Virus record (IMG/VR): IMGVR_UViG_3300028822_000042
Location: 1-64,000 of that record
From: a virus
Length of the DNA: 64,000 nt
Direction: 5' to 3' (one strand)
The translations under genes were made by a program, and so were the position numbers. This document shows, piece after piece, positions 29,481 to 48,508 of this stretch; position 1 is the stretch's first letter, and each line of letters starts with the position of its first letter. Below the pieces are notes generated by a model. That model did not search any database. It worked only from the letters and a program-made list of their open reading frames with translations, and was not told the DNA's origin.

Positions 29481-30155
29481 ATGGCACAAATTAGTTCATT
29501 TACTAGAGGCTACAATAGCTTCAGTGGTGTAGACATCAAAGCTACTATCGGCGCAAAGGCAATTGGTACTTTGCAAGGTATTAGCTATCAGGTGTCTCGT
29601 GAAAAAGCTCCTATTTATACAATGGGTACTGCCGATCCTAGAGCTTTTGCTAGAGGCAAAAGAGCTATTGCTGGATCACTGGTCTTTATCCAGTTTGATG
29701 CAGAGCCATTGATGTATGAGCTTGCTAACCCCAATGACGAAACAAGGCAATTGTATTTCTTGTCTGATGTTGATGATCTCAGACCAGAATATAACATGAA
29801 TGACGAAATCCCAGTCGCTGATACAACTGTTACTCCTGTTGGAGAAAGCAGTCCTAACGTGCCTGGTGCGCCTGCTGGTGGACAAGAGTCAGATGTTACT
29901 TCTGCTGCATCAGATCAGAAGAGAGCATTGCCTTGGTATCCTGATCAACTTCCACCCTTTGATGTTGTATTGACTGCAGCCAATGAATATGGTGCACTTG
30001 CCATCATGAAGATTCTTGGTGTTGAGCTTATGAACTCAGGTCATGGTGTCAGTATTGATGATATCGTGTCTGAGCACAGCTACACATATGTAGCCCATGG
30101 AATGGTCCCCTGGGTCTCTCAGGGCGTCCATGAAGACATGGAAAGCGCTATATAG
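29481..30155 (+). CDS. Tail tube protein
   Basis: A 224-residue protein immediately after the sheath, as usual for tube monomers that stack as hexamers inside the sheath. It has the beta-sandwich tube pattern: 'SGVDIKATIG', 'IGTLQGISYQVSREKAPIYTMG', 'ARGKRAIAGSLVFIQF', 'ANEYGALAIMKILGVE', 'VSIDDIVSEHSYTYVA'. Near-identical landmarks recur in the next gene, which places both in one family. A hairpin follows the stop. Confidence 0.85.
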   Translation: MAQISSFTRGYNSFSGVDIKATIGAKAIGTLQGISYQVSREKAPIYTMGTADPRAFARGKRAIAGSLVFIQFDAEPLMYELANPNDETRQLYFLSDVDDLRPEYNMNDEIPVADTTVTPVGESSPNVPGAPAGGQESDVTSAASDQKRALPWYPDQLPPFDVVLTAANEYGALAIMKILGVELMNSGHGVSIDDIVSEHSYTYVAHGMVPWVSQGVHEDMESAI

Positions 30156-30175
30156 TTAATGTCATGTCTATCCTA

Positions 30176-30205
30176 AAGGGCTAGGGGAATAGGCTCCTAG
30201 CCCTT
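30176..30205 (+). terminator. Attenuator-like hairpin after the tube gene
   Basis: AAGGGCTAGG (30176-30185) and CCTAGCCCTT (30196-30205) form a perfect 10-pair stem with a 10-base loop. Only a weak T/C-rich tract follows (CTCTCCCCTT), so termination would be partial. It fits reduced expression of the low-copy tube-like genes that come next. Confidence 0.7.
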
Positions 30206-30225
30206 CTCTCCCCTTAGGAGTCATA

Positions 30226-31158
30226 ATGTCTAATGGCGGCACACAAAAAACATTAGCCTCTTATCGAACAACAAGTGTTGATAAGAAAATTAGCTATCCT
30301 AACAATATAGAGAATGTAGGCAGAGCTTTACATCCTGCAGAAAGTACTAATTCTGTAGTTTCTGATTATATGGGATATGGTAGTTTCTCTGGGGCTGATG
30401 TTAAGGTTGTTGTCCATTATCCAAGAAATCACTTCTTAGAGAAGAGACTGGCTGAAGAGAAGAGAGACGCCATAAGAGAGATAAATGAAATAACTGATGA
30501 CATTAACTCATTTAGCGTTATAGATACTTCAAGACTAGAAGGCAGAAGACAATCTGCATATAAAAAGCTAGAAGAAATTGATGAAGAGATTGATAAATTT
30601 CACAATATACCTACATCTAAAGTTTTAGCTGAGCTTCAGACTATCAGCTATTCTATATTTAGAGAAAAAACTCCTGTACGTACATTAGGTTCTGTATACC
30701 CTAGAGCATATGTTCGTGGTCCGCGTACTATTGGTGGCTCTATGATCTTTACTGTGTTTCACAAACATGTTCTTCATGAGGTACTAAGCATGAACATGGG
30801 AGTATACAGTACAGGAACTAGTGATCATGATAGATACAGATATTCTACAAATTTACCTGATCAAATACCTCCTCTAGATATGAGTATCATATTTGCTAAT
30901 GAATATGGTGCTATATCTCATATGGGGCTGTGGGGGGTTGAATTTGTGCAGGAAGGATCTACTTTTTCAATTGAAGACATCTTTACTGAGAACACAGTGC
31001 AATATGTTGCTAGAGACTTAGACCCTATGAGGGTAGTAAATGCAAGAGAAATTGACGGGAAAGGTGTAAGTAAAGAATGGACCAAAACAGCTTCTATATT
31101 GTTATATGAGAAGCAACAGTTAAATAGTCATCTGACTAGAAGGAATCCTTTCTTATAA
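30226..31158 (+). CDS. Tube-like protein with coiled-coil insertion (baseplate/tube paralogue)
   Basis: A 310-residue paralogue of the tail tube. 'SGADVKVVVHY', 'LQTISYSIFREKTPVRTLGS', 'RGPRTIGGSMIFTVF', 'ANEYGAISHMGLWGVEF' and 'FSIEDIFTENTVQYVA' match the tube protein in order. Between the first two blocks is an extra 60-residue charged helical hairpin (about residues 70-125). A single-copy tube variant could begin or end the tube, like the T4 gp48/gp54 baseplate-tube pieces. It follows an attenuator, fitting lower expression. Confidence 0.7.
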   Translation: MSNGGTQKTLASYRTTSVDKKISYPNNIENVGRALHPAESTNSVVSDYMGYGSFSGADVKVVVHYPRNHFLEKRLAEEKRDAIREINEITDDINSFSVIDTSRLEGRRQSAYKKLEEIDEEIDKFHNIPTSKVLAELQTISYSIFREKTPVRTLGSVYPRAYVRGPRTIGGSMIFTVFHKHVLHEVLSMNMGVYSTGTSDHDRYRYSTNLPDQIPPLDMSIIFANEYGAISHMGLWGVEFVQEGSTFSIEDIFTENTVQYVARDLDPMRVVNAREIDGKGVSKEWTKTASILLYEKQQLNSHLTRRNPFL

Positions 31159-32051
31159 TGGCTATTAGAGACGAATATAACAATCTTGTTGGTAGCAAAT
31201 TCTCTGGAGAGAGAGTTTACGAATATGATTGGTTTTCTGGGTCTCAGATTAACATTATGTTAGGTGATGTTGTTATTGATAGTGCTGTAGGTATTTCCTT
31301 TAATATCCAACAGACAAAAACACCTGTTTATGGATATGCTAGTCAGTATTACAAGTTTGTGACTAACGGACATGTTCTTGTGCAGGGCAACTTGACCATT
31401 GCTTTTAAAGAAACAGGATACCTTATGTATCCTATTCAGAGGCTCTTAAACAATCAGGTCAATACAAAGAATCTTGACTATTCTGACTTGGCTAAACAAG
31501 AATTCTCTAGTTCTCCTAAATACTCAATGGAGAATGGTGAATTTCAGAGAGGTTATAAGAGTTCCACTAATAGTCTTACAGAAGCAGCTGATGCAGCTAG
31601 AAGAAAACGCACTATGAAGGCTAATGTGGAACAGATGTTTGAGTGGGAAGCTCGTGGCGGAGATCCTAAATTACAGAGAAGATACAACAAATTCTGGAGA
31701 GGGCTTTCAAGTCTTCCCGATGATAAGTTTGAAGACTGGGCAGAAACTTTTGAAGATGCAGTTTGGTTCGGATCAGATAGTAGCAATCCTGTAGTTAGAG
31801 ATAAATTTTTTAGCAACAATATTGATGACACAACTAGTCTTGCAGATGAAGATGTTTTGATGCATCGGCGTTTAGATCAATATCCAGAAATTGATATTAT
31901 TATCTCTTATGGAGATCAATCCATACATTCAGCAAATCACACCGTCAAGAAGATACTTGATGTCAATTTTACTGGTCAGTCTCAAACAATAGAAATTTCT
32001 GGCCAGCCTGTGTATGAACAGTACAGCTTCATTGCTAGAAATCTAGTTTAA
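31158..32051 (+). CDS. Second tube-like minor protein
   Basis: A 297-residue protein more distantly related to the tube family: 'WFSGSQINIMLGD', 'AVGISFNIQQTKTPVYGYAS', 'GHVLVQGNLTIAF' and a final 'GQPVYEQYSFIARNL'. A charged helical insertion (residues 130-200) interrupts the core. Position between tube and tail-assembly chaperones suggests a tube-baseplate junction part. The start overlaps the upstream stop (TAATG). Confidence 0.6.
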   Translation: MAIRDEYNNLVGSKFSGERVYEYDWFSGSQINIMLGDVVIDSAVGISFNIQQTKTPVYGYASQYYKFVTNGHVLVQGNLTIAFKETGYLMYPIQRLLNNQVNTKNLDYSDLAKQEFSSSPKYSMENGEFQRGYKSSTNSLTEAADAARRKRTMKANVEQMFEWEARGGDPKLQRRYNKFWRGLSSLPDDKFEDWAETFEDAVWFGSDSSNPVVRDKFFSNNIDDTTSLADEDVLMHRRLDQYPEIDIIISYGDQSIHSANHTVKKILDVNFTGQSQTIEISGQPVYEQYSFIARNLV

Positions 32052-32133: not shown

Positions 32134-32775
32134 ATGACTAAAGGCAAAAAACTATCAAATGAAGAAGCTCAGATGCTTGCAGAAGCAGAGAAGGCAGCAA
32201 AGGCAGGTTTTGACCAAAAAACAAAGCAGTTAAATGAAGAAATATATGGATCAATAACAACAAAGTTTGATCCTACAGTAGAAATGAAAGATAAAGCTTC
32301 TATGGAAAATGATTCTACAGTAGAGACCTCTTCTCATAGACCTGAAGAAGACCCATCTTTAGAGGGGGAAGAGCCTGGAGATACAGTCCCTGAAGATCCT
32401 GAAGAGAGGATGAAATGGACTGCCAAGATGCTGCAGAAGGTAAACCCTAAAGCACCTGGATACAATGCTCTTAGGCAGTGGAAACAGATGCATGGGGATA
32501 TCTTCATTCTAAATATACAAGATAAAGTCTTTATCTATCGGTATATTAAGAGACAAGAATGGGCACAACTTCAATCGAGTGATAGTTTCAACAACATGAA
32601 TCCTGTTCAACAGGAAGATCATATTACAGAACGTTGTGTTCTTTGGCCAGAAATGAATCCTATGGTTAAGGCATCTATGCCTGCAGGTGCATTGAGTATG
32701 CTTGCAGAACAGATCAGAATTCAGAGTATGTTCTTAGATCCTGTACAAGTGGCCAATATCACATTGAAGCTCTAA
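32134..32775 (+). CDS. Presumed tail-assembly chaperone 1
   Basis: A 213-residue protein. The first 100 residues are acidic and flexible. Residues 115-213 look like the tail-assembly chaperone pattern: 'DIFILNIQDKVFIYRYIKRQEWAQLQ', then 'ERCVLWPEMNP', 'PAGALSMLAEQIRIQS' (pieces, not continuous). Proteins of this sort, coded between tube and tape measure, coat the growing tape-measure protein. It is followed by a second small gene in the usual pair arrangement. TTGGAGG lies before the start. Confidence 0.6.
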   Translation: MTKGKKLSNEEAQMLAEAEKAAKAGFDQKTKQLNEEIYGSITTKFDPTVEMKDKASMENDSTVETSSHRPEEDPSLEGEEPGDTVPEDPEERMKWTAKMLQKVNPKAPGYNALRQWKQMHGDIFILNIQDKVFIYRYIKRQEWAQLQSSDSFNNMNPVQQEDHITERCVLWPEMNPMVKASMPAGALSMLAEQIRIQSMFLDPVQVANITLKL

Positions 32776-33467
32776 TGACTTCTCTCCATCATGCATTAGA
32801 TGCAATAAGAAAGGCAGATGATGCCTTATATGCTGTTCCGTTTCCTGATGGTACAGAGATAGTTTTTCGTCTGCCTTCTTATAGAAAAGCTCTACAGTAT
32901 TCTGAGCTTATATCTATTAGCAAAGAAGACTCTCAACTTTCTTCTCATATCTACAACTATATATTTAAATCTGTATGTCAGGATAAATTTCTGGCAAATG
33001 ATAGCGACATGCTTCCAGCAGGTGTCCCTGAGACGGTTGCTAAATTAGTCCTACTCTTCTCTGGTGTAGATGAATCTTCATTAGACTATACAGAGACTCT
33101 TCTTAACTCATATAGATCTAGAGTTAATAATGTCATCTGTACAATGAAGAGGTGTATCTGCAAAGTGTTTTCTGGGTATAAGTATCATGAGCTAGATAGT
33201 CTTAACTATCAGCAACTTATTGAAGTATTTGTTCAAGCAGAGAAAGTTTTACAAGATGAAGGTATAATATCTGAAGAGGGTCTTGTTATTCAAAGACCTG
33301 AAGATAGTAAACAAAAAGATCTTGATGTTGGACAAATGATCAATAAGGACATTAAGGAATACAATCAATTTGAACATGGTGGTTCTTCAGGACAATCCCT
33401 GTATGACAGCCCAGAATATAAATCTAGACTAGAACAAGAGAAGATGAGAAGGATGAGACAGTCTTAG
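32775..33467 (+). CDS. Presumed tail-assembly chaperone 2
   Basis: A 230-residue protein with 'DGTEIVFRLPSYRKALQYSEL' near the start, the same 'strand then Arg-rich helix' theme as the gene before. A helical core and polar tail with 'YDSPEYKSRLEQEKMRRMRQ' follow. In many phages this second chaperone is made by frameshifting; here it has its own ATG overlapping the stop of the first (TAATG), and no slippery run is visible. Function rests on position. Confidence 0.5.
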   Translation: MTSLHHALDAIRKADDALYAVPFPDGTEIVFRLPSYRKALQYSELISISKEDSQLSSHIYNYIFKSVCQDKFLANDSDMLPAGVPETVAKLVLLFSGVDESSLDYTETLLNSYRSRVNNVICTMKRCICKVFSGYKYHELDSLNYQQLIEVFVQAEKVLQDEGIISEEGLVIQRPEDSKQKDLDVGQMINKDIKEYNQFEHGGSSGQSLYDSPEYKSRLEQEKMRRMRQS

Positions 33468-33480
33468 GAGGGTACTTGAC

Positions 33481-36400
33481 TTGGTCAAAAAAATTCTTGC
33501 AGAAGGGGAACAACCAGGTTTACCTGGTGAAGGGTTCCAAGATAATTCTGGTTCTTTAACAGCTCTTGCATTTGGCGCTGGAGGTCTTGCCGCTACTGGA
33601 TTTATTCCTGTTGGCAAAGGTCGGATGTGGGATAAGTATCTCTCTGGAATTAGAAGTGTAGAAACTGCTTTTCCCGGCGCAATACTAAGAACATTTAGGA
33701 CATCTGAGTTCCTCTCTCCTCTTGAGAGCTGGTCCAAGCTTGGTCTTGCTGAAGCTGAGCTTAAGGGTGCTGGAGTATATTCAGATTACCTTAAGACTAC
33801 TTTTGGCCAGGGCATAAAGGCACTAGATGTTACTAGAACTGGATCTGTATTTGGTGAAGTCAGAGACGAGGCTGGAAGACTTGTTGGTATGGCAGCCCAG
33901 ATGGAGGCTGGTACTCTCAAGGGTTCTGCTATCTCTGACTACTATGCTCGTGTTCAAGGATTAAATCTTACTCAGTATGATTCTTTAAATGAATCTTTGC
34001 TCAGAGCCAAGTGGAAAGCTGCTAAGAGTACTCTTCCTTATAATGAATGGGTAAAGACTCTTGAGCCTCATCTGCGTAGAGAACGTATAATACTTGGGGC
34101 TAAGATTAGAAACAAAGCCAATCTCATGGGGCTTAATCTTGAACTCTCTGAGAGGATGGCTCGCAATGTAGCTAAAGCAGAAATAGCAGGAAATATCCTT
34201 AGAGCTAAGGCAGCATCTACTGCCGGTAGACTAAACAATCTACTTACAAAACCATTAGAAGTTCCTGTTCTTGGTGATGTTCTAGAGAAAATACCTGGCC
34301 TGCGTAGTATGGCCGTTCGTCCTGGCACCAACTTACAGATACTTGGAAGGCTTACTGCCAAAGGTGCTGTAGCTGGTGCTGCTTGGAAGGGTTTAGATTA
34401 TGTAGACTATCTTCGTTCTGAAGGGTCTATATGGGCTGCTCCACTGTCTGTAGCTGGTGGGGCTGCAGCTGGTGCTTTTATAGCTAGAAGACCTGGTATG
34501 AAATTCTCTAAAGGAGGATTGATTGCCGGTGCAGCTCTTGGTCTGTTTACTTCCATATCTCCTAGATTTAGTGAAGGCATATTCTATGGTGCAGCATCTA
34601 CTACTGCAGATATAAATCTTGCTAGATCAGAATTGTCTAGTACCGTTGGGATCACAGAGTCTCTTCAAGAACAAGAGGAAGTAACTTCTGGTCTTGTAAC
34701 TCCTCAAGCTGCATTAGCATTTGGTGGTATTGGTGCTTTAGGTGTTGGATTCGCTGACTATTTTTCCTTTCTTGGTCGCGCAAGTAAAGAGAAGTTGGCT
34801 ACTAAAGAACCGTTCTTTAAAGTTCTTGAACGATTCAGAGAGAGAGAGGGCAACTTAGTATCTAATTTGTGGGAGTCTTCTCTTGGTAAGAAAATAGCTA
34901 AAACTCCTATTCTAAAACATCTTACTAAGATTAAGAGTGCAGCAGGACTTGGCTTTGTTGCTGGCCTTGCTGCATGGCAAGGAATTACATCTGGTCTTTC
35001 TCTCCTTGCTGGCAATCCATTGGCAGCTATACCTGGTGTTCCTTTTATAGGAACCACAGAAACTCCTGAAGAGCTTAGTGCTGTTTATTCAGGTGAGAAA
35101 GATGTAGCTGTACGTAAAGGCAGATGGTGGGAGTTTGGTAGATCAACTGGTTACGAAGGTGGACGTATAGAATACTATCGTCCGCACTTTCTACATAGAT
35201 TAAGAACTAGAGCGTATCAGAAAGGACTGTATGGTTCAGAAGAGGAGAAATGGGAATACGACCCCATGATAAATCCTCTTAAAGCTCTTTTCGGCTCGGA
35301 TGAGTGGAAATACCACTATGAGAAAAAACATCAGTATGATAGACCTGCTCCTCTTACAGGCACATATGGAGAAGATATTCCGTTCATAGGGCCTCTAGTT
35401 GCAGCTACATTTGGTAAGCTCTTCAAGCCTCGTAAGAAAGTACGTCCAGAAGAATGGAATCTTGGTGGTGGTGAATATGTAGATATTACTGACCCTAGAG
35501 GAGAGACAGAACCTGCATATGGTCTTGGTGGTTTAGGTCCCGGTGCACCTGTTGCTCCAGAAGAAGGCAGCCAACTATTAAACCAACTTAACTATAGGAG
35601 ACGTGAAGCTGTAGGTCTTGTAGGTTTCCTTGAGGGAGCCCTTACTAAGAGAGCTATTGGTAGAGAAGAATTTTTTCAGAACAAAAGAACCCTAGAAGGA
35701 ATGGGAGAAGAGACAGGTTCTGAATACTGGTTATGGAAACATCTTAATCTTGGCGGTGGGTTAGGCACTACAGAAGCAGTTAGACGTTTTATTCCTAGAA
35801 CTCCTAGCTATCTAGAGACATATAATCCTCTAAAGAATGCTCTTCCTTCTTGGATGCCAGATGACTACTTTCTAGATCTAAAGCATGGTAACCCCTTCAA
35901 GAAGATACCTGAAGCAGAGATAAGACTTCCTGGTGAAGGCTATGCCACCCTACATCCAGAAGTTGAAGGTCTATCTCCTGAAGAATATCCATTAGCACAT
36001 AGAGTTAAGATCCTTGGCGATGTAGCTATGTGGTCTAATGAATATAAAAGCACAATTAGATATGCCAAGTCTAGATTAGATCAATTCTCTCCTGAAGAAG
36101 CTCAGATGATTCAGGAGACAGAGGAACAAGTAAGAGCCAAGAAGGAGAGAAGAGAGTTTTCTCCCTATATATTTGGTGGCGACCAACTAGAAGAGATGGA
36201 TGTAACTGTCTCTGAAGTCTTAAGTCCTAGACATATTAAGACTAAAGAGATGGGAGATATGATTCTTGAGATTCAAGGTATTGGTGCAGTTAAGAATACA
36301 AAGGAAGCCTTAAACTTTGTTCAGCAGTCTCTTGAAGGCAGCAAGGTATCTGTCCATACACCTAAACTAGAACCTAGAAGATACAGCTCTATAACTAGAG

Positions 36401-37662
36401 GTCCTAGAATGAAGGTAGTTCCTATGGTTGAGGGACAGCCTATTAGTTCTTTAATGGCAGAGGAAGGTATTTCTGAAGCGAGGCCACTAGAAGATGAGTT
36501 CAAACAATTACAATTTTCAACGGCAGAACGTCTTGCAGGTAGATTAGGTGAATATGTCACTCATGGAATAGAGACTCCGCTTGAATATCTAACTCCTGTA
36601 TCTCCAGCATCAAAACTTATTCGTAAGAGATCTCCAGTTGAAGAATATGTTGCTACAGAAGCTATAGGAACTGGAGCCTCATTCTGGGATAGGCCTGTAG
36701 AGAATTTTCTAAAGCCTGCTTATAACATGGCTAAATACAAAGCAGGTATAGTTGATGTCCCTGAAAACGTAGAAGAAAGACGAGATATTCAAGAATACTT
36801 CGATATGCTGAAGTGGGTTAAAATGTCTCGTCTTGAGAAGAAAGCTCGACAAATAGGTGATGATACAGCTGCTGCTGAATATAGCAAAGCTAAATCCTCT
36901 ACTGTATTTGGTGTAGATGTCTTTAAGAGTCCTGTAAATATTATGAGGGCTCTTCCTCGTCGAGAGAGAGATTTCTTTGGCGAATTTGTTGACGCAAGAA
37001 CAGAAGAAGAGAGAGCACAAATCCTTCAACTCATACCTGAGAACGAGAGAAGAATTTATCTTTCTCAATGGATGAGACAAGAAGAAAGAGCAGCCTATTC
37101 AAAGAGGAATGCAAAGATAGAGACAGAAGAGGACGATAAGATAATAAACATGACTGCTAGAATGAGAGCCTCTGAAGGTTTTTCTTATCCTGAAGGTGCA
37201 GAAGAACAATGGCTTAAAGAGACTGGCGGTCGAATAGAATTTGATGAGTGGATTAGAGAACGTAAAGCAGAAGAATACTTTGAGACTCACTCTCTCCCTG
37301 GAGCAGACTGGCTAGGTTGGCATCCATCAGTGGACCTTGAAGATGTTAAAATGCTCATGGTTGAGCAAGCAGGCCTTGACCACCATGACTTTGATCTCTG
37401 GGGACAGAGAAGAAGAGCCCTTGCACGTAAGCCATATATAGAACCATCTCTCCTTCAAGGTATGACTGAAAGAGCTGAATATGAAGATTCTTGGAAGGTT
37501 GCTGAGAATTCTAGAACTCTTACAAGAATGTTTAATGACCATCAAGCAGAAATATATGTTTCTCAGTTAGATACCCATGGAGATGACAATAAATATGATA
37601 TCCAGGTTAAGGATAGCCGCAGAGACCTTATTGAGAAAGCCTACAGACATCTAGGAGCTTAA
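33481..37662 (+). CDS. Giant virion protein in tape-measure position, with degenerate SNase-like segment
   Basis: A 1393-residue protein from a TTG start, with AGGAGGG about eight bases before it. Hydrophobic Gly/Ala-rich blocks lie at about residues 25-40, 320-360, 410-430 and 488-525. An aromatic region (RKGRWWEFGRS, YYRPHFLHRL) follows at 540-575. Residues 906-1003 keep the SNase outline: 'VTVSEVLSPRHI', 'MILEIQGIGAV', 'ALNFVQQSLEGSKVSV' and 'ISSLMAEEGISEA'. However, the catalytic Asp/Arg/Glu positions are replaced. 'FFGEFVDARTEEERAQIL' near 1165 looks like a conserved helical motif. It could be the tape measure, an ejected protein, or both; long coiled coil expected of a tape measure is not obvious. 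Confidence 0.6.
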   Translation: MVKKILAEGEQPGLPGEGFQDNSGSLTALAFGAGGLAATGFIPVGKGRMWDKYLSGIRSVETAFPGAILRTFRTSEFLSPLESWSKLGLAEAELKGAGVYSDYLKTTFGQGIKALDVTRTGSVFGEVRDEAGRLVGMAAQMEAGTLKGSAISDYYARVQGLNLTQYDSLNESLLRAKWKAAKSTLPYNEWVKTLEPHLRRERIILGAKIRNKANLMGLNLELSERMARNVAKAEIAGNILRAKAASTAGRLNNLLTKPLEVPVLGDVLEKIPGLRSMAVRPGTNLQILGRLTAKGAVAGAAWKGLDYVDYLRSEGSIWAAPLSVAGGAAAGAFIARRPGMKFSKGGLIAGAALGLFTSISPRFSEGIFYGAASTTADINLARSELSSTVGITESLQEQEEVTSGLVTPQAALAFGGIGALGVGFADYFSFLGRASKEKLATKEPFFKVLERFREREGNLVSNLWESSLGKKIAKTPILKHLTKIKSAAGLGFVAGLAAWQGITSGLSLLAGNPLAAIPGVPFIGTTETPEELSAVYSGEKDVAVRKGRWWEFGRSTGYEGGRIEYYRPHFLHRLRTRAYQKGLYGSEEEKWEYDPMINPLKALFGSDEWKYHYEKKHQYDRPAPLTGTYGEDIPFIGPLVAATFGKLFKPRKKVRPEEWNLGGGEYVDITDPRGETEPAYGLGGLGPGAPVAPEEGSQLLNQLNYRRREAVGLVGFLEGALTKRAIGREEFFQNKRTLEGMGEETGSEYWLWKHLNLGGGLGTTEAVRRFIPRTPSYLETYNPLKNALPSWMPDDYFLDLKHGNPFKKIPEAEIRLPGEGYATLHPEVEGLSPEEYPLAHRVKILGDVAMWSNEYKSTIRYAKSRLDQFSPEEAQMIQETEEQVRAKKERREFSPYIFGGDQLEEMDVTVSEVLSPRHIKTKEMGDMILEIQGIGAVKNTKEALNFVQQSLEGSKVSVHTPKLEPRRYSSITRGPRMKVVPMVEGQPISSLMAEEGISEARPLEDEFKQLQFSTAERLAGRLGEYVTHGIETPLEYLTPVSPASKLIRKRSPVEEYVATEAIGTGASFWDRPVENFLKPAYNMAKYKAGIVDVPENVEERRDIQEYFDMLKWVKMSRLEKKARQIGDDTAAAEYSKAKSSTVFGVDVFKSPVNIMRALPRRERDFFGEFVDARTEEERAQILQLIPENERRIYLSQWMRQEERAAYSKRNAKIETEEDDKIINMTARMRASEGFSYPEGAEEQWLKETGGRIEFDEWIRERKAEEYFETHSLPGADWLGWHPSVDLEDVKMLMVEQAGLDHHDFDLWGQRRRALARKPYIEPSLLQGMTERAEYEDSWKVAENSRTLTRMFNDHQAEIYVSQLDTHGDDNKYDIQVKDSRRDLIEKAYRHLGA

Positions 37663-37663
37663 T

Positions 37664-40600
37664 ATGTTTGGACAAGATGAACGATCACCTCTATGGGGTT
37701 TAGCTGCTGGCGGAAGTCTTATTGGCGGTGCCGCATATGCTTTTAGTAAAAACAAATCAGCATTTGCTGATGTTCTTAAATCTAATCTAGATGTGGCCTC
37801 TTCAGTGGGGTCTAGAATTGCTGATGCTCCTGGCTTTGTTACAGTTAGAAATATGCCTTCAGCAGTAGGTTCTGTTAGTAGTGAATTGTCTTCACTAGTT
37901 CAGGATCTACCTAAGAGCACAATACGAGACATAGAACAACTTACATACAGATCTATCATGGCAGGCAAAACAGCAACCCATGAAGAAGCATTGTCAGCTT
38001 TGTCTGTAGTTAGAAAACAGGGATCTCCTCTAGAAGCATATGAAGCAGCAGTTGAGAAAGCTGGAGCATTAGGCGGAGACATAGGAGAGATAGAAAGAGG
38101 AATGAAAGGAATTGGAAGTGTTCCTTCAGAATCTATAGTTAGACGTGCAGGAGTTTCTGAGGGAGGATTTGGTTTTGGCTTTCAATATGAGAAATTTGCT
38201 GATCTTAGTGAAGATGCCCAATCCAGATATACAAGACTTAAAAGCAACCTTGAGTCAGCAGCTGGCAGAAAAATAGATATTAGAGTTAAGAACATAAGTG
38301 ATATTATTGACAATGAGGTTGTAACTACTCCTATGGCTACAGCAGAAATTGCAGGAGAGTCATTTAATATTCCACTTGCTGATACAAAATATACTTATGG
38401 AGGCAAAGGATATACTGCTAGATACGCAACTAGAGGGGCCTATACTGCTACTGGCCATAAGATGACTTATTCTCAACTTGCTGAACAGACACTTATAGAT
38501 GCTTTGTCTGGCGCACAATCTCATAGAGAAGTTAAGCAAAATTTACTTCAAGCACATCAAACACTGATAGATCAAATGAACTCTAGAGATTCAGATGCTA
38601 GAGCAGCAGCAGTATGGACTCTTCCTGAGCCTGTTGCTCCTTCTGGATCTAAAGCTAGAACACGTATACTTGCACAAGAGGCAATTGCATCAGGCAAGAT
38701 TACAGAGGAAGAAGTAATTAATCTTTTAGGACATGGCTTCTATGGATACACAAGTCCCTCTGCTGCAGCAAAGGGAACATTAGCTACTCAAAATCTAGCA
38801 ACTGGTCTCTATGGTCCTCTTGGGGCTTTTATGAGTGCAGAGCAGAAACCTACTCAATTCATTAGAGGAGAATGGGGTGTTACAGGAGAAGCTAAAAGAA
38901 GAGCTAAAGCTTTTAAAGGTGCATTCGGACAAGCATACTCTCGTTTAGATAGAAAGATGAAGGGAGAACTATATGACCCTCTAATATATGGTAAAGGAGT
39001 TAATCCCCTATCTGCAGAAGCTTACTCCTCTCCTCAATTACTTACATTTTATGCAAAGCCTGCTGCAAAGAAAGAATATGGTATTGGCTATAAGTCAGGA
39101 GCTCTTAATGAACTTCTTTCAGCAGAAGAAGGAGTTATATCTAAATCTGTTACCGGACAGATGGAACATGAAAGAGTAATTCAGAAGAAGATTGCTCTTG
39201 ATGAAGGTTTTAGAGTTAACAAACAAATCTCAGAACAACTTAAAGATGTACCTCCAGGTTCTGGAGTTTCTCCTGTATTCTTAGGCGAAAATCAGTTTGT
39301 TGGAATAGAGAAAGGCACAGGTAAAGAAATAATAACTAGTAGAGGAGATGCTATTGAAAATGTTGTTGGTGCTGAGATTACTGGGCCTAATGAGGCTAAT
39401 GTTTTTATAAGAGAACGTAGAAGATTGTCAGAAGATGAATATTGGAAGTTCTTCTCAGAAGAGAACAAATTTATGGCTTCTGCTGCTTCTGAAGAGAAGA
39501 TGAGAAAGACTATTAAAGCAGCTGGGGTAGGAGACCTCAGAAAAATAGCTGGTCAGGAAATAGAAGCTGTGTTCTCCGGTAAGCTTGTTGGCAGAAACAA
39601 AATGGCACTTCTAAACCAGCAGATAGAAGCAGCAAGTATGTTTCTTGGTAGAAAGATAGATAGAGGAACAATTGCTTCTCCTGCGGCGCAAGAATTCTTA
39701 GCTGACCCTATAAAAGCTCTCAATGTAAAAAGTCTTATGGCTTCAAGTGCAGCAGATGCTGATTTTCAAATACAGAAGAACTTGGTTGGCTTAACAAGAA
39801 AGTGGGGCTTCTCTGGATTTGAAACACAGTTAACATTTGGTCTTACTGATCTTGATGTAGCAGCTAAGCTTGAGAAACAGACAAACTTTAGAGGCTTTTC
39901 TAGATTAGTTGAGAGAGCACCTGGTGTAGTCGGTCTTGGCAAAATGAAGCTTGGCGATAGAGCAGCTGAAGGTGGAGCTGGAAGAATAGGATCATTTGAA
40001 ACTACAGGTTTTAGAGCCTTGGCGATGAAAGGCGAAACAGGAGAAAGCTTTGCTGCTGAACTAAGAAATAGACTTCTTGGTAAAGGTGATATTACAGAAT
40101 CAGACAGAATGTTTGCCTCTGTTATTGGAGAACAAGGCTTCTTTGATAAGTTTAAACGTAGAGGTTTAGAAAATTTAACAGATATAGATCCTGAAGAACT
40201 GTTTGTTCCTGAAGGTAGAGAAGTTAGTCTTGGTCGGAGGATGAAAGAACTAGGAGGATCCTCTTCTTTATATGTCCCAGGTCTTGAGACATCTCCTGAT
40301 ATAATGGCTCCGTCTATCGTTAAAGGTGAAAGAGTACAGTCTCCAGCCGCTAAAAGCATAATGTCTTTCCAAGGCTCTCTTAGTAAACATGTCGCCGGTA
40401 AAATAGGAGATGAAGAACTTGAGGCTGCAGCTGCCACTCTCAGAACTAATCTAGCTAGAGTCTCAGAGCAGCAAGCATTTGCTAAGAGTAAAGTACTTGG
40501 CTCTAGAGTTCTTACAGGCATCAGAGGAAACTTTGCCAAGGATAGAGATACTTTTAGAATATCTAAATCTGCAGCAGAAGGAATGTTTGATGAGCTTATT

Positions 40601-42049
40601 GACAGAGCTGAATCAGGCGAACAAGTAGATTTCCTTAAGCAACAGAGAAAAGCAGCCATGGAAGAACAGGTTCTTACTGGAGGAATGTGGAGACACCCCA
40701 CTACAGGACCTGAGTCATTTCAGTTCGTAAAATACAAAGTAGATAAAGATCTAGCTGATGGGATGCTAGCTGCTCCTAAAGAATATGGGAAGCTTCATAT
40801 AGAAGGCAAGACTAGACCTGTAGATGTTTCTGCTATGGTTGGGTTTAAAGGTGACTTTGACAGAGATCAATTCGTTATATCTGCAATAGCCGATAGAGAT
40901 AACTCTAATAGAATAGCTAAACAGATAGATCATGGCATGAAAGAACAGTATAACAGATATGTGTTTAATCATTATGCTATGAAAGATTCCATCGAAGGCA
41001 GACTAGGCAAAAGTTCTGTCCTTGATATGACTTCAAAAGAAGCCCTTGAGATGGGATACAAACAACACACAACAGCAAAGACCTCAACTGGTAAAGTTAA
41101 TCTAGCTTTACAAAAACTAAAGATTGGTGTTTCAGCTGCAGCTCCTGAAAAGTATAGACCTTTAGCTGAAATGTTCTGGCATTTAGAAGAAGCGGCTATC
41201 AGTGGCAAGCATGGTGTACTAGAATCAGAACTTTATCAGGCAATTGCTAGTTCGGTTAATAAAGGTGGAGAACGGGGAATTAGAGATATGGAGGCTGTAA
41301 TAAAAAGTCTCATGGGAGAAGCAAGAACAATAAGAGGTGAAATAACTGATTCTTTTGGTAATAGGATTACTCAACAGATTGATTATAATCCAAGACAATG
41401 GGCTGAGACAGCTGTCGGTTCGTTAGATGCTGTTAGAGACGATGTTAATGCTGTTATGCGTTCGGCTTCATTTGCTAAAGGAAATGTAGACGCAAATATA
41501 AAACAGCTTACTGAACAATTCCATGCTAGAAGATCTGGTTCTGTTGATATAGCTCAAAGCCTTATGCAAGGAACAAGTGATGAGTTTACAACTAAAACAT
41601 CAAGAGCAATGAGACGAGGAGCTGTAAGAGCTAAAGGATTTATGTCTGCAGTTAAGAAAGGTTCTAAACCTCTTATGGTTGGAGCTGCAGCTGCTGCAGG
41701 TATTATGCTTATGTCACCTAGCACATCAGGTGTACTTAGAAAACCTGAAGGCTCTGCTGGCGGACGTAATATGCCACCAGAAGACTATGGTCCACCTAAT
41801 GGCGGTCCAATACAACCACCACCACCAGGACCAAATAGATCTCCTAGAACCTATGACATAGGTAGCGGAAACAGAACATCTCATGCTAATATTAGAATGC
41901 GTATTAACGATTTAGATTCTTCATCTAGAGACTTTATGGCTAGTGCTCGTGCCCTATCAGATGGTTCTGGAGTTAGAATTAATGCTAAAGATGACAGAAG
42001 TATCTTAGATCCTAGATTACTCGCTAGTAAGATCCATGAGAGGCTATAG
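37664..42049 (+). CDS. Giant virion protein containing a two-barrel RNA polymerase core
   Basis: A 1461-residue protein. Around residue 640 'SGKLVGRNKM' (K640, R644, K646) parallels the beta-subunit block GDKxxGRHGNKG with its two lysines. R1010 (WRHPTTGP) parallels the NRxPTLH block. 'GFKGDFDRDQFVI' gives the DxDxD metal triad D1064/D1066/D1068, equal to NADFDGDQM of beta-prime. Further on 'TGKVNLALQKL' (1143-1153) and 'HLEEAAISGKHG' (to 1184) resemble the conserved blocks after the triad in single-chain polymerases (YonO, crAss-like phages, cellular RdRPs). Residues 1-35 and 1350-1370 are hydrophobic, and the C-terminus is Pro/Gly-rich then basic. Two-barrel RNA polymerase is my best reading; packaging in the particle is inferred from the tail-gene context. 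Confidence 0.75.
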   Translation: MFGQDERSPLWGLAAGGSLIGGAAYAFSKNKSAFADVLKSNLDVASSVGSRIADAPGFVTVRNMPSAVGSVSSELSSLVQDLPKSTIRDIEQLTYRSIMAGKTATHEEALSALSVVRKQGSPLEAYEAAVEKAGALGGDIGEIERGMKGIGSVPSESIVRRAGVSEGGFGFGFQYEKFADLSEDAQSRYTRLKSNLESAAGRKIDIRVKNISDIIDNEVVTTPMATAEIAGESFNIPLADTKYTYGGKGYTARYATRGAYTATGHKMTYSQLAEQTLIDALSGAQSHREVKQNLLQAHQTLIDQMNSRDSDARAAAVWTLPEPVAPSGSKARTRILAQEAIASGKITEEEVINLLGHGFYGYTSPSAAAKGTLATQNLATGLYGPLGAFMSAEQKPTQFIRGEWGVTGEAKRRAKAFKGAFGQAYSRLDRKMKGELYDPLIYGKGVNPLSAEAYSSPQLLTFYAKPAAKKEYGIGYKSGALNELLSAEEGVISKSVTGQMEHERVIQKKIALDEGFRVNKQISEQLKDVPPGSGVSPVFLGENQFVGIEKGTGKEIITSRGDAIENVVGAEITGPNEANVFIRERRRLSEDEYWKFFSEENKFMASAASEEKMRKTIKAAGVGDLRKIAGQEIEAVFSGKLVGRNKMALLNQQIEAASMFLGRKIDRGTIASPAAQEFLADPIKALNVKSLMASSAADADFQIQKNLVGLTRKWGFSGFETQLTFGLTDLDVAAKLEKQTNFRGFSRLVERAPGVVGLGKMKLGDRAAEGGAGRIGSFETTGFRALAMKGETGESFAAELRNRLLGKGDITESDRMFASVIGEQGFFDKFKRRGLENLTDIDPEELFVPEGREVSLGRRMKELGGSSSLYVPGLETSPDIMAPSIVKGERVQSPAAKSIMSFQGSLSKHVAGKIGDEELEAAAATLRTNLARVSEQQAFAKSKVLGSRVLTGIRGNFAKDRDTFRISKSAAEGMFDELIDRAESGEQVDFLKQQRKAAMEEQVLTGGMWRHPTTGPESFQFVKYKVDKDLADGMLAAPKEYGKLHIEGKTRPVDVSAMVGFKGDFDRDQFVISAIADRDNSNRIAKQIDHGMKEQYNRYVFNHYAMKDSIEGRLGKSSVLDMTSKEALEMGYKQHTTAKTSTGKVNLALQKLKIGVSAAAPEKYRPLAEMFWHLEEAAISGKHGVLESELYQAIASSVNKGGERGIRDMEAVIKSLMGEARTIRGEITDSFGNRITQQIDYNPRQWAETAVGSLDAVRDDVNAVMRSASFAKGNVDANIKQLTEQFHARRSGSVDIAQSLMQGTSDEFTTKTSRAMRRGAVRAKGFMSAVKKGSKPLMVGAAAAAGIMLMSPSTSGVLRKPEGSAGGRNMPPEDYGPPNGGPIQPPPPGPNRSPRTYDIGSGNRTSHANIRMRINDLDSSSRDFMASARALSDGSGVRINAKDDRSILDPRLLASKIHERL

Positions 42050-42052
42050 TAA

Positions 42053-45000
42053 ATGACAAAGAAGAAAAAACCAACTCGTGAAGAGCACCTAAAGTATATG
42101 AAGACAGACACTTCATCTATACTTGGTAAGTTAGGTTCTTTTCCTGTACGTAGGTTACATCAAGAAAGAGACTATTCTACCTCTCCTCGCACATCACTTA
42201 GATATATATCATCTACGATTGAGAGAAGTCGTCCTTCATTTGATAAAGCAAGAACAACTGGATTTGATTATAATCCAGGTTATGTAATTCCTTCAGACAT
42301 TGAGTTAAATACAGGTTTTAGTGACGAAAGAGAACTTCAGTTAGAGAACGACTTTGCTGAACCTATTAGCAGTGAATCTATTGAAGGCGGAACAAATAGA
42401 CCTGATCTACTAGAGCAAGAAATAGAAGAAGCTATTTCTAAAGATACTAAGCTAGCTACAAAATTTTCTTTTAATACTTTTTCAGATGATTTTCTCATCA
42501 TAAATGATGTCTTTCTCTATAACGTTCCTACAGCAAGTATCTCAATTCGGTCACAAACTGATGTTTTTGTTGGTGAGACACTTAGAACTAGAGCACCTGT
42601 AATCTCTACAGAAGGTCGACAAGATTTCATTTTGAATTTAAGTTTAGTCTTTAATCCTGGTAGAGAACAAACAGAAGATTTACGTAGACTTATATCTGAA
42701 CTATCAAGACATCCTCTTGTCTTTATCTTCAATAACAAAGTTAGAAAGTCAATTGGTGTTGGTGAATTCGACACCACAATGTTTATTCTTGAAGCGGGTA
42801 CACTTAGAAGCTCATCTGAATCTGTAGGTGCTGTAGTACTAGATTTACAGATGCACTATTTCAATCATAAACCTTTCAGCAATAACTTCTTCTTCAACGC
42901 GAAGATGCCCGGTATTTCATATTCTTCTGAGATTGAAGACTCAAAGGCAAGAGAGCCACTTAGTTTAGATAGTCTTGAAGGATATGAGTCGTCTGATTAT
43001 ATTCTTGACCAAAAAGCACAAGATATAAGAGAAAGAATAAGAAAGAGTGTTACTCAAGTTGCAGATTCTAAGACAAGAAATATTCCTGTAAACTTTCCTT
43101 CAGAGTCTGATTCTTGGAAGTATTATGCAGATCATCTTACTGATTTGACTCCTATCATCTCTGAGAAGCCATCAGACTATATGAGCTTTTCTGTTAAGGT
43201 CTTCGAAGTAAAAGACCCTCCTAAAGAAGCAAAACAAGGACTTGGTACGATTCAGGGCGCCTTAACAAGCACAGTTACTCGTCCTTCTGTCAAGTCTATG
43301 TATGATGCTACTAAGCCTCTTCCTGAATCCAAAACATACCAACAGAAAGAGGTAGAGGCTACGTATGATTCTAATGTACAGCCATCTGCTCTTGAAGGCA
43401 CACCTATTGATTTTTATAGTTATGACTCTGGCAGGTCTGACAGTATTATACTTACTGCTTCTCCTGGTGTTGTTCATAGTGATGCCTCAAGTAGACTTTC
43501 TGATTTAATTAATGTTGGGAAGGATGAAGGCGCCCCTGCAATTCAACCTGGATTAATTCTACATATGCAAAAAGTAGCTAATAGATTTCCAGGTAGAAAA
43601 ATTTTAGTTAATTCAGGTTCCAGGTTTCCTAAAAACCCAGAGAAATTCTATTCTAAACCAGTAGAGAGAAGAAGTAGACATGCTACTGGAAACGCCATGG
43701 ACTTTAAGGTTCAAGGCGTATCAAATAGAGAACTTTTTAAGTTCTTAAGAACTCTTCCTAATTGTGGATCAGGATACTATCCTAATTCTACATTCTGCCA
43801 TGCTGATTATAGATCTAGAAAGGATTATTGGGTTGATATTTCTGGCCCGGGAGAAAAATCACATTATCTTAGAGGCCAAGACAGAGCAGATTACCTTAGA
43901 CAACATGTCTATGATGGGTCTGCACAATCAGACAATGTAGAGGCAGAAGCCGACAAGAGAAGTCGTCAGGCTAAATCAAAACCTCATGAGCAACGTAAAG
44001 ATGCTGCCGCTCCTAAATCAAGTGAATACGCTAAACAAGAAGAAGAATTATACAAGAAACAAACAAAACAAGATCCTTCTATTGGACATAAAGTAAACGA
44101 CCCAGTAAAGAGGTCGTGGCAGGCTAGAGCTGATTGGATAGAAAAACTCTATAGAGAAGGAGGTTGGATCTATTATTCAGGAGAAGATAATAAGATAAGA
44201 AATGTATTCTATAAGGAGTACTCTGTAGAAATCTCTTCTGGTATAGATTCAAATAGAGATCCTGACATTCTTAGAAATATTGTTTGTTCTGCAATCTCAA
44301 TTCAGTTTGGTCATAGAATTGCTCCTATGAGATTGCTTAGTCAACATACATACACTTATCAATTTCTTGGCGCTGGTAATAAATCTGGACAAATGGTTTT
44401 TACTTTCTCTGGCAAGAAAGGTCGTGAGTCTGCAGATGCTCTGAAGAGACTAATTATTTTTGCTAGAGATAATGCAAGAAATTTTGGAGGTGTAATCAAA
44501 GAAGCAGGAACTATATATATAAATGGCCTCAACTACAATAATGGAGACACTAATACAATTCTGTCTCTGCTTAATATAGAGAATATCATTATTACAGATA
44601 TTAAGGAGTCTTCTCTTCCGGACTCTGTAGATAAACACCAACTTGTACTTGAGTTTATTATTCAGGATTTTCAAGAAGAGACTTTTGAAAAACTATTTGT
44701 TGAATCTGTTGAGAATAGAAGAAGAATAATAAAACAAATATTTAAGTATCTTACTAGAAACAAATATGGTGTGGTTCCTGTCCCTTCAGTGGCCACCTAT
44801 GATCCATCTCAATATAGACCGTATGTTTTAAACAAGGAGACTCCTTCTTGGGTTTCAAGTATTATTAGCAGAGCGGCTACTATAACTAGAAATATAGAGA
44901 AGCAGATGCCTCCTCTTGACTGGAAGTTAGAGCCTAGATCTTCAAGAACATGGAGAGACATATATGCAGAGTGGGGAGCTGATAAAGTAATAAAGGGAGA

Positions 45001-48000
45001 CTATTCAAATGTCTCTTCTTCAGACTTCAATGCTTCTTCTTTAACTGTAGGTAGAAGTGTGTCTTTGTCTGCAGTTCAAGACCTAACAGAAAGACGCAAG
45101 TTCGAGAGTAATGGAGGATCAGAAACCAACAATACTCATAATGATCTATATAGAGAATGGCTATCACAGATGACCAACCTCACTAAAGAGGTCAAGAAGT
45201 ATATAGAAGACGAGAAGAACTTTGAAAAGTACTTTGGTTCTCTTGGTGATGATTTATTAGATGCTGTTACTCAGACTATGGGTGAGTGCTATGGAGATAT
45301 GCTTCTTCCTAATCTTCCACATGCTAACATTCCCGTACCTCCAGAATTCTATGTCTATGACGACTCAGATGAAAGCCCTATCTTATCCAATATTACAGAC
45401 CCTGCTAATATGGAGAAGTTTTTAAAAGAACATATTAGGAATGAAGTTCAATCTATATCTTTGTACATGAGAGAACGTTGGCTTGGTGGATCATACTTAG
45501 CAAAGAATCTTCCTCGTATATTAGAAAATAGGAAATATTACGATAGACAGATGCAAGGAGAGTTTGATTTTATAGATAATTTTTGGAAGATATATCAAGA
45601 AGGAGCAACAGCTTGGGAACCAATAACATATAAAGAGGACCCTTCTATTGATAACAATTCTCAAGTTAAGAAGTGGAAAGAATTTACTTATGCTGGTATA
45701 GGAGCCACTAATCCTGAAGACGCTAGATTTAAATACATGGAAAGTCTTGTTGGCTTAAGTCAATATCTTAATAAAGGTAGACATTGGCAAACAAGTTATA
45801 CTGAACAAGATAACCGTAACCTAGTGACAAATATATATGGCGACCTGTATGATAAGACATCTTTTGGTCCCAATCCACAATATAACAAAGCAGATGCTGC
45901 ATCTAATGGCAAAGCTCTTCCAGAACGAACACTAACTCAGATACAAGCGATAACAAACCAAGCGTATTCTAAAGTAGCTAAAGACAATAATGTAGCTATT
46001 CCTATTGGTTCTGATAGAACCGCGTTACCAAACGGTGATATTGTTATAGGAGACACGAAAGAAGAAAGATTAGCTGAAGAATACTCAACAAGTGTTGCTA
46101 TGATTAATGCAGCTAAAGAGAGTGTCGATAGGATGAAGAGACGCTCTCAGAATAGCTTATTGGGGTATATCGGTAGTGTTGGTGGTCTTGCTCTTGTCTC
46201 TATGCTTGATTTTACTGACACCTATGATGTTGATGCTTCTGATTTAATATATAGAGGAAATGCTGATGCTGTAAATAGAGCTAGCGCAGCACAGCATATA
46301 TCTAATGTAATTAAAACTTTAGATCATAATATTAAAGAAAACGTAGATGAAACCAACCAAGAAGACAAGATGGCATCTATGTTTGCTGGGATGGCTATTG
46401 GCTCTAAGGCAGATGATCTTAGCATTCGAAGAGCATATCCAACATTTAAAATATATTTTATTGAAGAAGACGCTCAAGATAGCGAAATGATAGATGGGAA
46501 GGTCGTCAGAGCATTTGATGACTTTTACAGTTATTCAGCTATTCAAGAAATAAAGATAACTAGGTCTCGCAAAATAGCTTCTGATCTTGCTGTTATAAGA
46601 ATGACTAATGTTGGTGGTCTTCTTCTAAGACGTAGATTTGGAGATAGAGATCCTAGACAAAATAGTACTGGTGAAATGCAAGGTGTTTTTGCAGATACCG
46701 CTAAAGAGCATCCATTTGAGAAGATGGTTCTTCAAGATGGAGTAAAGGTTCAAATCAGACTTGGTTATGCCTCAGACCCAAGTAATCTAGAGTCAGTATT
46801 TCTTGGTCAGATAGTTGAGATAGCGCCTTCAGAACATGGCAAAATCTTAGAAATAATGTGTCAGGGATATGGAGCTGAACTTGAATCTATTGAACTTGGC
46901 GAGCTAGAGGATGGACCTATATATACTAGCACTCAACAAGCTCTGTCTTCTGCTATCATTCAAGATAGCGTGTCTACATTTGGTAGACAAAGTAATTTTA
47001 ATAGATTCAATCCTGCAGAAATAAGACATGCTTGGACAGGAGGTACTGGAGATAGTATTCTTGGAAAAATAAATCCTGCTACTGCTGTCAGAGATTGGGC
47101 AGACCATAATATGGATAAACACTTCCAGAAGTACACCTTCTTGAATTTTCCTCAAGATGATAATATTTTTGCTCCTCCTCCTTCTGCTTATGCCTCAGCA
47201 TGGATGAGGTTTTATAACAATGCCTGTATCTACAGACCTTTAAAACAAACTCCATGGCAAATATTCAAAGAACATGAACTTAGACATCCTGGATATATTT
47301 CTATGGCTGTACCATATGGACATTCACCTAGAATGACAATGTTCTTTGGTTCAAAGATGCAGCACTATTGGTCTAAACCTCCTTCATCTTTAGAACTATT
47401 TGCGTCTGAGAATGCATATAATGCTCTTGTTAGAATGAGAGGCAAAGTTGCTTCAGGCGATTTTAAGTCTTTACAAGGTTTAATTAGTCGACTGACTAAA
47501 GAGTCAGGAGAAAAGCCTAAGCTTATATCTGCGATGCTTAGAGATATTGCTTTGTCTGGTGCTCCTACAAGAACATCTCAAGCAATTGCTAAAGAGACAG
47601 GAAGATATAAACCATTTAGAAACTATCATTACTTTGATAGCTATCACCATATTTTAAAAAATGAAATTCGTACTTCTACAGATGGAACATTTAATGAAGT
47701 AGAAATACTATTCTTTACTGATGAAGATGATATTCAAGAACAATATGCAGAAGATCTAATAAAAAGCATTCAAAGTCTTGGATCAAAACAGGAAGGTGTA
47801 TTTTCTGTTAAGCTAGATGAAAATATACTTGAAAGTTCACTAAGGTCTTACAGAGAAGAATTTCCGTCATGTGTCACTGTAGATATGGCAAGAAGGTATG
47901 CTCAGGGTATTTTTGCAAGACACCTTAGAGACGCCTATAAAGGAGAGCTTATTGTTCTTGGCAAAGAAACACTAAAGCCATATGATATTTGTTATCTCAA

Positions 48001-48508
48001 TGATGCAAGTATCAATATGACAGGGCCTATAGAAGTTGAAGCTGTCACTCATGTCTTTAATAGAGATAATGGATTTATTTCAATAATAACTCCTGACTTA
48101 TGTGTTGACGTAAATGATATGTTTAGTACTACTGTATTTGATGTAGCTGCTGCTGGATATAGTTCGGTATGGAGCTGGAATGATGCTTTAAACCCACCAG
48201 CGGCTATTCTTAGTTCTATTGCTGGGTTTCTTGCTATGTCTGCTGGTGTTAAACTATCAATGTGGACGCAAGATGGCGATCCTGTAGTTCCAACACCTCT
48301 AACACTTGGCGGTAAGCCTTTTATGAGTGTATCGCTTGGGCCAAATCAATCTTCATTGTTCTTGAACTTCTATGGCAAATGGGTTCAATATTGGGATGAT
48401 CTTGAAGATGCTTGGCATAAATTTGATATTGCAGAAGAAATCTTTGATAAGAGAGTTGGCTTTAGGACTAAGATTCTATCTATGTTGGGAACAGGAACAG
48501 GAGAGTAA
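42053..48508 (+). CDS. Baseplate hub with M15-type peptidase and tube-like domains
   Basis: A 2151-residue protein. Residues 138-290 and 718-900 resemble tube-type beta domains (for example 'CSAISIQFGHRIAPMRLL' with 'SGQMVFTFSGK', parallel to the tube 'LQTISYSIFREKTPVRTL'). Residues 500-600 are a zinc peptidase of M15 type: H543 and D550 in HATGNAMDF, and H583 in FCHADYR. These could cut peptidoglycan cross-links during penetration. Residues 1465-1700 read as a gp27/GpD-like hub: 'VQIRLGYASDPSN', 'VFLGQIVEIAPSEHG' and 'LEIMCQGYGAELE'. A basic, flexible linker lies at 630-690. A hydrophobic segment lies near 1370-1385. Confidence 0.75.
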   Translation: MTKKKKPTREEHLKYMKTDTSSILGKLGSFPVRRLHQERDYSTSPRTSLRYISSTIERSRPSFDKARTTGFDYNPGYVIPSDIELNTGFSDERELQLENDFAEPISSESIEGGTNRPDLLEQEIEEAISKDTKLATKFSFNTFSDDFLIINDVFLYNVPTASISIRSQTDVFVGETLRTRAPVISTEGRQDFILNLSLVFNPGREQTEDLRRLISELSRHPLVFIFNNKVRKSIGVGEFDTTMFILEAGTLRSSSESVGAVVLDLQMHYFNHKPFSNNFFFNAKMPGISYSSEIEDSKAREPLSLDSLEGYESSDYILDQKAQDIRERIRKSVTQVADSKTRNIPVNFPSESDSWKYYADHLTDLTPIISEKPSDYMSFSVKVFEVKDPPKEAKQGLGTIQGALTSTVTRPSVKSMYDATKPLPESKTYQQKEVEATYDSNVQPSALEGTPIDFYSYDSGRSDSIILTASPGVVHSDASSRLSDLINVGKDEGAPAIQPGLILHMQKVANRFPGRKILVNSGSRFPKNPEKFYSKPVERRSRHATGNAMDFKVQGVSNRELFKFLRTLPNCGSGYYPNSTFCHADYRSRKDYWVDISGPGEKSHYLRGQDRADYLRQHVYDGSAQSDNVEAEADKRSRQAKSKPHEQRKDAAAPKSSEYAKQEEELYKKQTKQDPSIGHKVNDPVKRSWQARADWIEKLYREGGWIYYSGEDNKIRNVFYKEYSVEISSGIDSNRDPDILRNIVCSAISIQFGHRIAPMRLLSQHTYTYQFLGAGNKSGQMVFTFSGKKGRESADALKRLIIFARDNARNFGGVIKEAGTIYINGLNYNNGDTNTILSLLNIENIIITDIKESSLPDSVDKHQLVLEFIIQDFQEETFEKLFVESVENRRRIIKQIFKYLTRNKYGVVPVPSVATYDPSQYRPYVLNKETPSWVSSIISRAATITRNIEKQMPPLDWKLEPRSSRTWRDIYAEWGADKVIKGDYSNVSSSDFNASSLTVGRSVSLSAVQDLTERRKFESNGGSETNNTHNDLYREWLSQMTNLTKEVKKYIEDEKNFEKYFGSLGDDLLDAVTQTMGECYGDMLLPNLPHANIPVPPEFYVYDDSDESPILSNITDPANMEKFLKEHIRNEVQSISLYMRERWLGGSYLAKNLPRILENRKYYDRQMQGEFDFIDNFWKIYQEGATAWEPITYKEDPSIDNNSQVKKWKEFTYAGIGATNPEDARFKYMESLVGLSQYLNKGRHWQTSYTEQDNRNLVTNIYGDLYDKTSFGPNPQYNKADAASNGKALPERTLTQIQAITNQAYSKVAKDNNVAIPIGSDRTALPNGDIVIGDTKEERLAEEYSTSVAMINAAKESVDRMKRRSQNSLLGYIGSVGGLALVSMLDFTDTYDVDASDLIYRGNADAVNRASAAQHISNVIKTLDHNIKENVDETNQEDKMASMFAGMAIGSKADDLSIRRAYPTFKIYFIEEDAQDSEMIDGKVVRAFDDFYSYSAIQEIKITRSRKIASDLAVIRMTNVGGLLLRRRFGDRDPRQNSTGEMQGVFADTAKEHPFEKMVLQDGVKVQIRLGYASDPSNLESVFLGQIVEIAPSEHGKILEIMCQGYGAELESIELGELEDGPIYTSTQQALSSAIIQDSVSTFGRQSNFNRFNPAEIRHAWTGGTGDSILGKINPATAVRDWADHNMDKHFQKYTFLNFPQDDNIFAPPPSAYASAWMRFYNNACIYRPLKQTPWQIFKEHELRHPGYISMAVPYGHSPRMTMFFGSKMQHYWSKPPSSLELFASENAYNALVRMRGKVASGDFKSLQGLISRLTKESGEKPKLISAMLRDIALSGAPTRTSQAIAKETGRYKPFRNYHYFDSYHHILKNEIRTSTDGTFNEVEILFFTDEDDIQEQYAEDLIKSIQSLGSKQEGVFSVKLDENILESSLRSYREEFPSCVTVDMARRYAQGIFARHLRDAYKGELIVLGKETLKPYDICYLNDASINMTGPIEVEAVTHVFNRDNGFISIITPDLCVDVNDMFSTTVFDVAAAGYSSVWSWNDALNPPAAILSSIAGFLAMSAGVKLSMWTQDGDPVVPTPLTLGGKPFMSVSLGPNQSSLFLNFYGKWVQYWDDLEDAWHKFDIAEEIFDKRVGFRTKILSMLGTGTGE

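Follow-up and report, generated by a model that had tools for sequence, protein, structure and literature searches.

The 64,000-nucleotide stretch analysed here (the window; positions 1 to 64,000 of IMG/VR record IMGVR_UViG_3300028822_000042) includes the tail region of an uncultured contractile-tailed phage, in which an open reading frame (ORF) on the + strand (37664-42049) encodes a protein of 1461 amino acids (aa). Two small genes (32134-32775 and 32775-33467), placed like tail-chaperone genes, are followed by a 1393-aa gene, the 1461-aa ORF and the baseplate hub gene. An earlier note on this DNA had proposed that the 1461-aa product hides a two-barrel RNA polymerase core; the gene order confirms its placement of the gene between tail-assembly chaperones and hub, and the ORF extent and every motif residue that it cited are present. 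We found that a conserved catalytic block in this gene recurs at one constant position, next to the hub gene, throughout a wide lineage of phages.

The 1461-aa protein has no credible family match in Pfam, PHROG, NCBIfam or PDB sequences, a profile search of the latter giving chance V-ATPase matches only; tblastn against phage records detected no relative, nor did two scans of genome contigs. Scans of IMG/VR returned nine homologues with approximately 38-53% identity and two distant ones (contigs L045 and L048, about 26%), giving a family of 12 sequences, window included; the copy in contig L001 is identical to the window gene. Further scans seeded with L045/L048 and with contig L050, described below, yielded no additional relatives. 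The homologues precede the hub gene in every contig reaching that far. Nine residues are invariant in 12/12 members (R1010, P1012, Q1020, D1064, D1066, D1068, H1103, Y1104 and N1146), and when the blocks of Acinetobacter phage ME3 and L050 are added, giving a 14-row alignment, invariance is confined to R1010, P1012 and the three Asp. The KHG motif is unchanged in all 11 family members that extend to it and is also present in the B. paralicheniformis homologue (EQKLIDAKHG). Both KHG and the TGKVN block, listed in the earlier note as polymerase elements, are thus conserved, and they are placed where phage two-barrel enzymes have post-barrel helix or loop elements; we infer a bridge helix around TGKVN and a trigger-loop region around KHG. 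The Arg in the DFDRD triad, considered unusual in that note, is not very unusual: the fourth residue is Lys, Asn, Leu, Gln or Gly in the relatives, and Ile or Val in crAss-like enzymes. On both strands of about 430 kb, ORFs of at least 250 aa were searched with the pattern R.P[TSANV].{18,80}D[FYHASL]D.D. No other such ORF matched in the window or the rest of the 86.5-kb record, and none in the fetched, possibly incomplete, remainders of two related contigs (197.7 and 174 kb), so no second polymerase with the same motif was found.

Table 1. Features of the 1461-aa product and the adjacent genes (window coordinates; motif residues numbered in the product).
Feature	Coordinates	Strand	Remark
Candidate tail-module RNA polymerase, giant ORF (1461 aa)	37664..42049	+	Corresponds by position to gp146, the 0305phi8-36 'tape measure'
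K595-K602 pair (KFFSEENK)	39446..39469	+	Both kept in 12/12; best candidates for the lysines of a putative beta-type barrel
SGKLVGRNKM (638-647)	39575..39604	+	Beta-like motif of the earlier note; present, K640 and K646 not conserved
Putative beta'-type double-psi barrel (~945-1080)	40496..40903	+	From the hhalign profile chain
R1010-H-P-T-x6-Q1020 block (RHPT 1010-1013)	40691..40723	+	R-to-Q spacing equals that from R425 of E. coli beta'
DFDRD triad (D1064/D1066/D1068)	40853..40867	+	Putative metal-binding Asp triad; invariant in all relatives
FNHYAMK (1101-1107)	40964..40984	+	Conserved helix after the barrel; H1103, Y1104 invariant
TGKVN (1142-1146)	41087..41101	+	Possible bridge-helix region; N1146 invariant
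KHG (1182-1184)	41207..41215	+	Invariant; possible trigger-loop region
C-terminal tail (1437-1461)	41972..42046	+	Probable hub-docking segment; pattern common to most syntenic giants
Upstream giant (1393 aa)	33481..37662	+	Hydrophobic segments; gp145 counterpart; alternative tape-measure candidate
Baseplate hub protein	42053..48508	+	M15 peptidase and gp27-like hub domain; synteny anchor

Hubs homologous to that of the window are encoded by ME3, Moorella phage MTATph1, Bacillus phage KLEB27-3 and by phage-plasmids of Bacillus, Cytobacillus and Paenibacillus. NZ_AP024502, NZ_CP065512, NZ_AP025341, NZ_CP048288, NZ_CP114067 and NZ_CP118109, 200-240-kb 'plasmids' of these three genera, are apparent phage-plasmids of the same tail lineage. 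The ME3 record relates its hub to YP_001429638 of phage 0305phi8-36 and the gene two before the hub to YP_001429636; because both flanking genes are tied in this way, the gene between them (the slot gene) is the positional counterpart of gp146. The latter was named tape measure mainly from its size, and its positional counterparts have only the last 60 residues in common with it (PMC2147016). An R-x-P...DxDxD block was found in the slot genes of ME3 (gp036, REPA...DHDQD), KLEB27-3 (gp034) and L050 (both RYPT...DYDGD) and five Firmicute phage-plasmids, namely those of Cytobacillus (RYPS...DFDGD), B. velezensis (RNPS...DYDGD), B. paralicheniformis and B. halotolerans (RYPT...DSDGD) and P. rhizovicinus (RYPS...DADGD). 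Outside the hub region, ME3 has two weak DxDxD-like ORFs of 763 and 546 aa. In the C-terminal tail of the window protein, DN or DDR is followed by hydrophobic and aromatic positions, a pattern seen in all examined ends but that of ME3; hhalign of the window tail with the KLEB27-3 tail was weak. The Firmicute slot proteins are 2.3-2.4 thousand residues long with a DnaQ-like exonuclease at the N terminus. This domain occurs in the slot genes L055:5370-12236 (Firmicute; DNA polymerase III epsilon, E 1e-4), L037:13004-20308 (Firmicute) and L051:1019-6670 (RNase_T, E 5e-8) and was recognised by eye in KLEB27-3; it was not found in the window protein.

Profile comparisons connect the window block to cellular RNA polymerase in two steps. 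The 12-member profile aligned with the syntenic-family block by hhalign (score 34.7, E 6e-4), RHP being paired with RYP and DFDRD with DFDGD, while column shuffles reached a maximum of 26.9 and none of 200 attained the real score. The syntenic family in turn aligned with the E. coli beta' block (~R425-D460; score 33.4, E 1.1e-3; maximum of shuffles 21.8, 0/60). For both KLEB27-3 gp034 and the L050 gene the best Pfam match is PF00623 (Rpb1 domain 2), lying exactly over the R-x-P/triad block; the 251-kb L050 contig has one match to it (E 4.2e-4) and no other. Through this chain of sequence profiles, the catalytic block is homologous to beta'.

The structural comparison suggested in the earlier note was made with two AlphaFold models, covering residues 215-1262 (model 1; predicted local distance difference test, pLDDT, 56; predicted template modelling score, pTM, 0.28) and 485-1215 (model 2; pLDDT 63, pTM 0.37). 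When PDB was searched with Foldseek, all 50 matches listed for model 1 were beta'/Rpb1-type RNA polymerase chains (best E 3.9e-3), and model 2 matched the phiKZ non-virion polymerase first, the AR9 non-virion polymerase fifth and vaccinia RNA polymerase chain B lower. Among viral models, model 2 matched an unnamed protein (E 1e-5) and, in third place, ME3 A0A172Q021 (E 1.8e-3), which is split into pieces of 801 and 802 residues, together 1603 aa, the length of gp036. RNA polymerases abound in PDB and the models are of low quality, and we therefore count the fold search as support and not as proof: the top matches are mostly to RNA polymerases, but the models are too weak to show double-psi barrels. 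Conservation, synteny with the homologues that have canonical DYDGD/DFDGD, the two profile links and the fold search nevertheless agree with the proposal that the R-x-PT block and Asp triad are beta'-like elements, and the putative beta'-type barrel of the window protein is well supported.

The second half of the proposed two-barrel core fared less well. Beta-like lysines had been assigned to K640 and K646; K640 is Glu in L045/L048 and the K646 position is K, R, Q, L or P across the family, whereas K595 and K602 are invariant. Since the three Asp are invariant the triad looks functional, and since K640/K646 vary while K595/K602 do not, the beta-like motif appears to have been misplaced. Foldseek matches to beta-type subunits (vaccinia chain B) were weak and sub-threshold, and a by-eye alignment of residues 577-660 with E. 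coli rpoB was dropped as evidence after a negative profile comparison. A beta-type barrel in the window protein is plausible.

Other results weigh against a polymerase in the tail. Both models are of low confidence, with pLDDT below 50 in the triad region, and neither gave a PDB match at E 1e-3 or better. Direct hhalign of the window family with E. coli beta' did not rise above shuffles (2/60), and the profile of the candidate beta-type barrel did not match rpoB. No significant match was obtained with phi14:2 gp66, the crAss-like set or P23-45 gp96; PF05183 (RNA interference (RNAi)-type/YonO-like) gave nothing in ten related contigs and is absent from the Pfam matches of the window protein. 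The slot gene of L051 keeps the tail segment and lacks the polymerase core, and in MTATph1 a transposase gene (L036:16539-18026) separates the giant genes from the hub, with no polymerase block seen.

Altogether, the catalytic signature of cellular RNA polymerases is present in the window gene and in the same-place genes of related giant phages, and therefore these phages probably use the tail to deliver a transcription enzyme of their own into the host. In our judgement the product of 37664-42049 is probably a single-chain two-barrel DNA-directed RNA polymerase, built into the tail and delivered to transcribe the first genes. Such an enzyme would be seated near the hub, most likely docked through its C-terminal tail, and would enter with or ahead of the DNA at infection. 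Within the beta'-type barrel, catalysis would rely on R1010, in the R-x-P loop, and on the Asp triad of DFDRD as metal-ion ligand, while a beta-type barrel would contribute K595 and K602. RNA synthesis by the window protein and its early role are presumed.

The closest precedent is gp96 of Thermus phage P23-45, a virion RNA polymerase fused to the tape measure, for which activity was shown and action during DNA entry proposed (PMC10770324). In each case a two-barrel core, putative in the window protein, lies within a giant tail protein, and outside the motif neither resembles known enzymes in sequence; in gp96 the R-x-P is followed 38 residues on by DxDGD, and its SIDFPK may be compared with KHG. 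Unlike the 1461-aa gene of a contractile-tailed phage, gp96 has its core at the N terminus of a 5002-aa protein of a long non-contractile tail. The crAss-like phi14:2 gp66 (PDB 6VR4) and its relatives are single-chain two-barrel enzymes in giant virion proteins, as the window protein would be, with a fourth triad residue other than Gly (DFDID, DFDVD) and an R-I/V-P block, but they belong to another lineage, Crassvirales, and gave no profile match. ME3 gp036, KLEB27-3 gp034 and 0305phi8-36 gp146 occupy the same place before a gp27-like hub; the first two have the R-x-P/triad block of the window protein and KLEB27-3 also its C-terminal tail pattern, while gp146 is likened to it by position alone, through the ME3 record. 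None of the three is recognised as a polymerase in its record or the literature covered. Finally, 0305phi8-36 gp99, YonO and RNAi RNA polymerases (PF05183) belong to the two-barrel single-chain superfamily in which the window protein is placed here as a candidate, but are products of non-structural genes.

Non-virion enzymes are common in phages (PMC10770324), and the window protein could be a two-barrel RNA polymerase made during infection that stays outside the particle and is merely encoded in the tail operon. We regard this as unlikely, given the slot between chaperone-like genes and hub in the relatives, the C-terminal tail in common with the syntenic giants and the annotation of the KLEB27-3 homologue as 'structural protein'; these same observations make carriage of the window protein in the virion plausible. 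Slightly less likely still is that the protein is chiefly a tape measure or ejected pore protein with an inactive, inherited polymerase fold. The slot of gp146, a tape measure mainly by size (PMC2147016), the non-Gly fourth triad residue and the coreless L051 gene would fit this; however, R1010, Q1020 and the three Asp are invariant down to 26% identity, which is unexpected for a dead site, and the giant at 33481-37662, with hydrophobic segments and adjoining the chaperone-like genes, could be the tape measure instead. We consider improbable a two-barrel enzyme that makes something else (for instance as a primase, or as a polymerase that copies RNA or synthesises DNA during genome entry), although such enzymes include RNAi polymerases and archaeal PolD (PMC10770324) and the Firmicute homologues carry a DnaQ-like exonuclease: the window protein lacks a detected exonuclease, and the phage virion two-barrel enzymes so far known make RNA on DNA. 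An ordinary structural protein with chance motifs, to which the lack of family matches at accepted thresholds and the low-confidence models could point, is very improbable against an invariant, unique and syntenic block, the profile chain and the fold matches.

Virion-borne two-barrel RNA polymerases have been described, in the literature covered, for phiKZ-like, crAss-like and P23-45 phages only, and the kind of enzyme is known. The family, its hub-proximal slot in a contractile tail, the variable fourth triad residue and the exonuclease-fused Firmicute cousins appear to be undescribed in the literature searched, a search that did not extend to the survey in Supplementary Data 4 of PMC10770324. 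It may also be, at what we judge a little under an even chance, that the 'tape measure' of the 0305phi8-36 lineage of contractile-tailed giant phages is in truth an RNA polymerase borne in the tail, or a hybrid of polymerase and tape measure, fused in Firmicute members to a DnaQ-like exonuclease; it would then be an injected machine acting on nucleic acid that went unnoticed in isolated phages. If a tail-borne polymerase is indeed present, a broad lineage, from Acinetobacter phages to Bacillus/Paenibacillus phage-plasmids, would begin infection with its own enzyme and the size-based tape-measure assignment would need revising; the cultured phages KLEB27-3 and 0305phi8-36 would make the idea testable at once.

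Several observations concern other genes. In two phages that are otherwise divergent (L002:4651-9990 and L003:4653-9989), the gene preceding the polymerase candidate contains Hint-like insertions that are almost the same; its window counterpart (33481-37662) is shorter and apparently has none. The terminase large subunit gene of the window (10329-13397) is interrupted in frame by an intein that has Hint and LAGLIDADG domains. A 1446-aa protein (4310-8650) combines DnaQ/PolB-like exonuclease, staphylococcal-nuclease and kinase-like domains. Three adjacent genes (29481-32051) all match phrog_9206, a triplicated tube- or head-like gene.

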